Shown here: positions 36,162 through 37,705 of the stretch, in pieces
Layout of the letters: every line of letters starts with the position of its first letter
Position numbering within the stretch: position 1 is the first letter of the stretch
Source of the DNA: an uncultured Lachnospiraceae bacterium
GTDB lineage: Bacteria > Bacillota > Clostridia > Lachnospirales > Lachnospiraceae
DNA length: 38,159 bases
Assembly (NCBI GenBank): GCA_947175175.1
Contig: CAMWLV010000020.1
Span: 1-38,159 of the forward strand
Direction of reading: 5' to 3'
Notes under the pieces: model-generated
What the model saw: only the letters and a program-made list of their open reading frames with translations
Told to the model about the DNA's origin: nothing
The model's database searches: none
Translations under genes and position numbers: made by a program

Positions 36162-37256
36162 ATGAGCAATATAATTTTAACAGGTGACAGACCTACAGGG
36201 AGACTTCACATTGGACATTATGTGGGCTCCCTTAGGCGAAGAGTGGAACTGCAGAATTCTGGGGAATACGACAAGATTTACATTATGATTGCAGATGCGC
36301 AGGCACTTACCGACAATATTGACAATCCAGAAAAGGTCAGACAGAATATCATTGAAGTAGCACTGGATTACCTGTCAGCAGGACTGGATCCGGCAAAATC
36401 TACGCTCTTTATACAATCACAGATATCAGAGCTCACAGAGCTTACATTTTACTATATGAACCTTGTAACAGTTTCCCGGCTTCAGAGGAATCCAACGGTA
36501 AAGAGCGAGATACAGCTTAGAAATTTCGAGGCAAGTATCCCAGTTGGATTTTTTACATATCCGATCAGTCAGGCAGCGGATATTACGTTCTGTAAAGCAA
36601 ATGTGGTTCCTGTTGGGGAAGACCAGCTTCCGATGATAGAGCAGACGAAGGAGATTGTGCATAAGTTTAATTCAGTGTATGCGCCAGAGAATCCAGTACT
36701 TGTGGATCCCAAGGCACTGATACCGGAGGCGGAGGCGTGCAAGCGGCTGCCTGGAACAGACGGAAAGGCAAAGATGAGCAAATCGCTTGGAAACTGCATC
36801 TACCTCGCGGACAGCGCAGATGAGGTGCGGACTAAGATTATGAGTATGTACACAGATCCCCTGCATCTGCAGGTCAGCGATCCCGGACATCTTGAGGGAA
36901 ACACCGTGTTTACCTATCTTGACGCATTTGCGCGCGATGAACATTTTGAGCGGTATTGCACTGATTATGCAAATCTCGATGAGATGAAAGCACATTACAC
37001 AAAGGGCGGTCTAGGCGATGTGAAGGTCAAGAAACTTTTGAACAATATCATACAGGAGGAACTCGAGCAAATCAGGAAAAGACGCGACGAGTATGAGAAG
37101 GACATTCCTGAGATATACAATATCCTCAAGAAGGGCTCTGATGCAGCACGGGAAGTGGCAGCACAGACACTCTCGGAAGTAAAGCATGCTATGAAAATTG
37201 ACTATTTTGAAGATATGGAGCTGATCAAGGCGCAGTGTGAGAAGTATAAGAGATAG
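36162..37256 (+). CDS. trpS: Tryptophan-tRNA ligase
   Basis: [24 protein letters not shown] (HIGH-type), [18 protein letters not shown] (KMSKS), [20 protein letters not shown]. Confidence 0.97.
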
Positions 37257-37486
37257 TGTTAGGTATCTATGAAAGCTCTGGTGTGGAGGAGTTATGGATT
37301 ATATCTCCCAAAGAGCGAGCTGTTGAGATTTACTATCTTGAAGATGGAGAATATAGTTTAAATCAGAACTATATATTACAAGATGATATCGAGGAAGAAT
37401 ATTACAATGCAGAAACGGAAATATCATTAAGGGCTTTTCCGCATATCAAAATGACATTGGCGGAAATATTTGAAGGAGTTGAATAA
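37256..37486 (+). pseudogene. Remnant of a Uma2-family (DUF820-like) protein, C-terminal part only
   Basis: 76 aa: YESSGVEELWIISPKERAVEIYYLEDGEYSLNQNYILQDD...ISLRAFPHIKMTLAEIFEGVE resembles the C-terminal part of Uma2 proteins. Only start is a GTG overlapping the trpS stop; no convincing RBS. Confidence 0.6.
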
Positions 37487-37493
37487 AGTTTTG

Positions 37494-37523
37494 AAAGACA
37501 TCTCATAAGAGGTGTCTTTTTTT
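37494..37523 (+). terminator. Rho-independent terminator
   Basis: AAAGACATCTC-ATAA-GAGGTGTCTTTTTTT (one G-U pair). Confidence 0.88.
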
Positions 37524-37530
37524 ATGCACA

Positions 37531-37596
37531 CGCCGATGCTAATGCGAAAGGCAGTTTTTCGCATGGGAAATATGCCACTGGAGTGGCGCATCGGCG
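37531..37596. repeat. 66-nt structured element with three-way-junction inverted-repeat architecture
   Basis: Outer stem CGCCGATGC (37531-37539)/GCATCGGCG (37588-37596); hairpin A ATGCGAAA (37542-37549)/TTTCGCAT (37557-37564); hairpin B GCCAC (37574-37578)/GTGGC (37583-37587). Confidence 0.75.
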
Positions 37597-37601
37597 GCGC
37601 G

Positions 37602-37631
37602 CGAGTAGGGGAAAAGCTTTTCCCCTACTCG
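37602..37631. repeat. Perfect 30-bp palindrome
   Basis: CGAGTAGGGGAAAAGCTTTTCCCCTACTCG equals its own reverse complement. Confidence 0.95.
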
Positions 37632-37705
37632 ATTAATACATAATTTTACGCTTTCCAAGAAAAACTATGTAATAGGAAAATGAGATAAAAACAGGAGGCG
37701 ATCAA

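Follow-up and report, generated by a model that had tools for sequence, protein, structure and literature searches.

The window, by which we mean the whole stretch of 38,159 nucleotides analysed here from an uncultured Lachnospiraceae bacterium, contains near its 3' end a structured repeat lying between the trpS-side terminator and the leader of spoVAD (Pfam PF07451), with no evident host function at this locus. The terminator and the parts of the element are on the forward strand. The intrinsic terminator (37494–37523) comprises a hairpin, AAAGACATCTC-ATAA-GAGGTGTCTTT (37494–37519), and a T-tract extending to 37523, and the position recorded by the initial annotation, after this terminator and before spoVAD, was correct. 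Upstream, positions 37256–37486 encode a 76-aa C-terminal fragment of a Uma2 protein (PF05685) that starts at the trpS stop codon; similar sequence occurs in two relatives (L044 and L046) and was not seen in the others. Downstream, at 37634–37674, the sequences TAATACATAATTTT and AAAACTATGTAATA form an inverted repeat that is 14 nt long and imperfect; the same segment contains a TTCCAAGAAAAACTA box, which recurs upstream of spoVAD in many relatives.

Structure and boundaries of the element

The initial annotation had described a 66-nt three-way junction at 37531–37596, and each of its parts was recovered: a 9-bp closing stem (37531–37539/37588–37596), an 8-bp hairpin with a 7-nt loop (37542–37549/37557–37564), a 5-bp hairpin with the loop TGGA (37574–37578/37583–37587) and the single-strand joins TA and GGGAAATAT. 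Folding of this 66-mer gave −32.4 kcal/mol (z = −5.0), whilst 37490–37634 folded as DNA, which adds the terminator hairpin and a 3' hairpin termed P4, reached z = −9.0. The limits originally drawn were nevertheless too narrow, as the junction sits inside a longer unit of approximately 37524–37634. A covariance model (R1) built from 14 copies found a single match on the + strand of the window, at exactly these positions (76 bits, E 3.8e-15). Beyond the earlier limits, the 5' part reads ATGCAC and pairs with GCGC at 37597–37600, and the 3' part consists of a 17+17-nt overlapping palindrome (37602–37631) and the end GATT.

Alignment of 26 copies revealed a common plan of AT, P0 (GCRC/GYGC), P1 (9 bp), an unpaired (A)GRGGAAATAT stretch, P3, the return strands, P4 and the end GATT, within a length of ~87–122 nt and with no gene of its own. 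In the window copy, the 5' strand of P0 (GCRC, 37526–37529) pairs with 37597–37600 (GCGC), its third position being frequently an A-C mismatch, with G-C in 20 other copies, and the 5' strand of P1 (37531–37539) pairs with 37588–37596 to form the closing stem of the initial annotation, with two-sided changes across copies in 9/9 pairs. The joining strand GGGAAATAT (37565–37573) corresponds to the unpaired sequence conserved across the family, and P3 (GCCAC-TGGA-GTGGC, 37574–37587), in which 6/6 pairs of the model helix covary, is followed by the 3' strands of P1 and P0 (37588–37600). P4 (CGAGTAGGGGAAAAGCTTTTCCCCTACTCG, 37602–37631) is a 30-nt perfect palindrome hairpin that resembles domain VI of resident group IIC-type introns, and the GATT tail after it closes with the 3' end AT^T (37632–37634). 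The remaining hairpin, P2 (37542–37564), is an extra hairpin within the unpaired (A)GRGGAAATAT stretch. It is optional and missing in the majority of copies, which have a short purine-rich join or, in others, a TTGCATAAGCAA hairpin instead. Two subfamilies contain this optional hairpin, in the window and in L009, L016 and L036 as a palindrome such as ATGCGAAAAACCATATATGGCAGTTTTTCGCAT, and P2 may represent an insertion nested in the element.

Dispersal and covariation of the family

The copy number proposed for checking by the initial annotation proved high, with 51 BLASTN matches in the element's own genome and approximately 40 covariance-model matches at E below 2e-5, and the element was present in relatives too. 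Within the genus, 21 of 23 genomes carried it, with up to at least 108 matches per genome. Across a Lachnospiraceae sample of 397 genomes, presence being called by a covariance-model match at E <= 1e-6, it was detected in 63 genomes and in 56 of 334 genera. The named near relatives were all Lachnospiraceae, and outside the family 1 of 16 genomes contained one copy.

Covariation was assessed on 91 aligned copies, with the alignment fitted to the model. Standard pairs made up 92.8% of pair cells, and 29 of 32 pairs showed changes on both sides, amounting to 461 cells versus 156 in shuffles and 29–70 in slid controls. The covariation score was 0.431, compared with 0.179 for shuffles and <=0.095 for slid partners, and a hand-set structure, applied to 14 copies aligned with MAFFT, agreed with this result. 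As the changes are compensatory, both structural halves, the P0-P1-P3 arm and the P4 hairpin, are maintained. This constitutes strong evidence that selection acts on a folded single strand, which may be RNA or ssDNA. The feature may thus be a structured RNA, as suggested, although the covariation, which shows selection on base pairing, does not distinguish RNA from single-stranded DNA. The initial annotation would have been abandoned had the element been single-copy, unconserved and without covarying pairs, and the opposite was found on all three points.

A related form in three genomes (G351, G454 and G395) keeps the P0-P1-P3 arm and differs in P4 and the 3' end; the conserved arm may therefore be able to function alongside more than one kind of 3' end. 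In G351 and G395 an additional hairpin, bearing a conserved AAACGCTCCGCGAGG, lies upstream in this form. Composite repeats made up of a variable upstream hairpin, the P0-P1-P3 arm and a different 3' hairpin were also observed (L296–L304, L327 and L117–L121), with AAACGCTCCGCGAGG conserved in several and many near-identical copies in G351 and G454.

No Rfam family matched the window or four element loci above the gathering score, and no published description of the element family was found in the open-access literature. The family is real, multi-copy, mobile and under structural constraint, and as a family it appears not to have been described before: it occupies about one-sixth of sampled Lachnospiraceae genomes, with 100 or more copies in some and very strong covariation, yet matched no Rfam family.

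Insertion behind intrinsic terminators

Comparison of the window locus with relatives, together with a search with the flanks of 28 own-genome copies and alignment, yielded six clean empty sites in close relatives, showing precise insertion with no target duplication (the window versus L044/L159, L011 versus L173, L030 versus L160, L019 versus L187, L036 versus L166 and L087 versus L180). In the last of these pairs, the new copy had been placed in front of an old decayed copy. At the window locus, TTTTTTT-ATGCACA...CTCGAT-TAATACATAATTT corresponds to TTTTTTTG-TAATACATAATTT in the closest relative, and the terminator is unchanged at the empty site in L044. This comparison delimits the inserted unit as 37525–37633 (TGCACA...CTCGAT) or, equivalently, GCACA...CTCGATT. 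The element is also missing at this locus in four other relatives (L047, L049, L053 and L054), so the window insertion is derived; a further relative (L062) carries a different subfamily at the same place.

The common rule is that TGCRCA...CTCGAT lies, without duplication, behind a terminator T-tract and one further base, A or G, and in front of a T, giving the target form T(n)(A/G)^T and a single orientation relative to the terminator. The window's own site has A in place of the relative's G, and L036 is off by one T. Because a new copy can insert before an existing one, as in L087/L180, head-to-tail copies with the junction CTCGAT-TGCACA occur elsewhere. A terminator-like hairpin immediately preceded 59 of the 90 non-tandem sites; the corresponding frequency was 1.1% for random positions and 8.6% (35 of 408) for control positions of the form TTTT^[AG]T. 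Several non-tandem sites lacking an upstream hairpin still keep the T-tract. The terminator noted as a neighbour by the initial annotation turns out to be the insertion target, and the family singles out terminators as insertion hot spots of mobile DNA. Exact dinucleotide-core (IS110-like) recombination was rejected, as it fits one empty site only. One copy (L012; G000:C32:9887–9974) lies within a 440-codon open frame, in which it occupies ~29 codons in frame (MHTPMQMKYATGVAHRRRASRGKAFPLLD) and the frame stays open.

From these genome comparisons we read the feature as one copy of a mobile element that targets terminators and is non-autonomous. A functional 3'-UTR or small RNA gene maintained by the host, such as a bidirectional terminator or mRNA-end stabiliser, and copied by recombination would also suit the strong covariation and the location at transcript ends. 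This we consider very improbable, given that some copies are missing at orthologous sites in near relatives and that copies lie behind unrelated genes, in tandem and, in one case, inside a reading frame.

Candidate mobilising machinery and known systems

For the mobile element, a group IIC-like route is proposed as the most likely, at a probability of about 40%. Group II introns of the Rfam D1-D4-3 type (RF02001) were located by way of reverse transcriptase genes in element-bearing genomes. Where the 5' junction was visible, these introns lay behind terminator hairpins and T-tracts (L354, L379, L383 and L384), and where the 3' junction was visible they ended in CTACTCGAT, which is also the element's 3' end (introns in L360/L384, L366, L367 and L368), or in CTACTTGAT (L354). 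One intron end is the exact start of an element (L354) and another is within two bases of one (L367). The base of intron D6 reads GAG-AGG...CCT-A-CTC-GAT with a bulged A, and that of the element's P4 reads GAG-T-AGG...CCT-A-CTC-GAT. Among exact short matches between element copies and five introns, 94 of 167 end at both 3' termini, reaching up to 13 nt, and the element's own genome gave one RF02001 match. Like the element, group IIC introns insert behind intrinsic terminator stem-loops; their IBS1 is rich in T and the IBS3 at the insertion point is one base long (PMC4424553, PMC7161350, PMC10190682). In the E. rectale intron structure, which shows both features, that IBS3 base pairs with an A of the intron (PMC10190682). 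The T-tract and the T kept to the right of the element agree with this arrangement. Under the proposed mechanism, the element's single-stranded form, probably RNA and less likely ssDNA, would be recognised by terminator-targeting group IIC-like intron machinery through the D6-like P4 and the 3' end common to element and introns, and would be inserted in trans at targets of the kind that the introns use, in the way that a SINE relies on a LINE.

Several observations fit this route less readily. Element and RF02001-intron co-occurrence was not above chance in the 397 genomes (20/63 vs 117/334, p = 0.67), and no RF02001 introns were seen in genomes such as G064 and G233, whose recent copies are nearly identical, although repeats are often missing from draft genomes. 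An RVT_1 search of the element's own genome, which has the RF02001 match, found none. Also against the route are the missing domain V, the paired instead of bulged branch adenosine, and the related form with another P4 and 3' end. Copies read (A/G)TGCRCA at the 5' end, where introns read GUGYG; most empty sites assign the first base to the target, leaving a mismatch to intron G1 under the simplest boundary.

An autonomous partner outside the searched families, whether another transposase or a recombinase, could instead mobilise the element, with the likeness of P4 and CTACTCGAT to introns reflecting a shared adaptation to the terminator target. The lack of an element-intron association in the 397 genomes is consistent with this, as is the related form with a different P4, which suggests that the P0-P1-P3 arm is the conserved part. 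We regard such a partner as rather unlikely, since a 9–12-nt match exactly at the 3' terminus, together with the GAG(T)AGG/CCTACTC basal helix, would be hard to reach by convergence, and no gene-carrying version was found among left ends in Lachnospiraceae bacterium COE1. That left-end search returned 53 matches versus 10 in the control; of the 30 loci retrieved, those that the model did not match proved to be truncated copies or chance matches, and a gene-carrying version in COE1 was rejected.

Also doubtful, to a similar degree, is movement as an ssDNA element by an HUH enzyme (IS200/IS605 TnpA, RAYT or rolling-circle transposase) recognising a hairpin and short tail. The terminator hairpin and P4 both have this shape, Y1 transposases are present in some element-bearing genomes, and the absence of target duplication, fixed orientation, a hairpin by the cut at both ends, A^T insertion and tandem arrays are HUH-like traits. 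However, in the genus Y1 genes are part of IS200 elements whose ends differ, RAYT genes have GGGGACGGGG-type repeats of their own on either side, element copies stand next to Y1 genes at chance level, with one case (L144), and seven genomes (G000, G005, G006, G013, G394, G451 and G190) carry copies without a Y1 match. Y1 searches of the own genome, the genus and 18 family genomes, combined with element scans of those loci, led us to reject RAYT/REP as the cognate partner. In Lachnospiraceae, a separate REP system is apparently represented by RAYT-like Y1 genes (L334, L335, L351, L352 and L147) that lie between GGGGACGGGG-type inverted repeats or short repeats of a similar kind.

The element agrees with the suggested label 'REP/MITE-like' in being dispersed, mobile and non-coding, but is neither a strict REP, which implies RAYT linkage and a 20–40 bp palindrome, nor an IS200 MITE. 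No RAYT gene was flanked by the element, and its ends were not common with a resident Y1 element as in an IS200/IS605 MITE (PATE). The bcr1 repeats of the Bacillus cereus group are likewise structured, non-coding, dispersed chromosomal repeats of ~155 bp at T-rich sites; they duplicate TTTAT, whereas no duplication was seen for the element, and sequence and host differ. Rickettsia palindromic elements are small and palindromic and can sit in frame inside a gene, as does one copy here, whereas nearly all copies are extragenic and most lie behind terminators. REPs with RAYT are, like the element, dispersed extragenic palindromes in bacteria, and their hallmark is a palindrome of 20–40 bp that is tagged at one end by GTAG or CGTC (PMC3733652). 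The element is longer (87–122 nt), has GTAG inside the P4 stem, and differs in its two-domain fold, terminator target and lack of RAYT linkage.

Resident group IIC introns resemble the element in their 3' end, basal D6 helix and, for two of them, direct adjacency, and the element follows the group IIC habit of lying behind an intrinsic terminator without target duplication. The introns here measure ~1.9 kb with a ribozyme core and RT, whereas the element, at ~0.1 kb, has no D5, encodes no reverse transcriptase and carries no bulged branch adenosine, its A pairing with T (UA 72, UG 5, CG 4 and other 2 across copies). Rfam group II models (domain V and the D1-D4 core) had no match in the window or four element loci, and we do not claim membership of group II or group III introns. 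A 2015 review considered that few RT-less group II-type introns had been missed in bacteria unless their domain V was unlike known ones (PMC4424553). If the intron link holds, the elements would be such a missed class, with trans-mobilisation testable in culturable gut bacteria such as COE1.

Euglena group III introns are ~90–120 nt, D5-less, sometimes with D1 and D6 motifs only, and are thought to depend on trans-acting machinery (PMC4424553). Their length is similar and the D6-like P4 fits, but the P0-P1-P3 arm cannot be equated with D1; group III introns are spliced and reside in Euglena chloroplast genes, whereas the elements here are almost all intergenic and known from DNA. On a more speculative reading, which we think improbable, the elements would be the bacterial equivalent of group III introns: extremely short satellites of group IIC introns that have no D5 and are spread in trans by a full intron's ribozyme or RT. 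If true, bacteria would have a pairing akin to that of SINEs and LINEs, and the elements might parallel the transition by which self-splicing introns became trans-acting, spliceosome-like ones.
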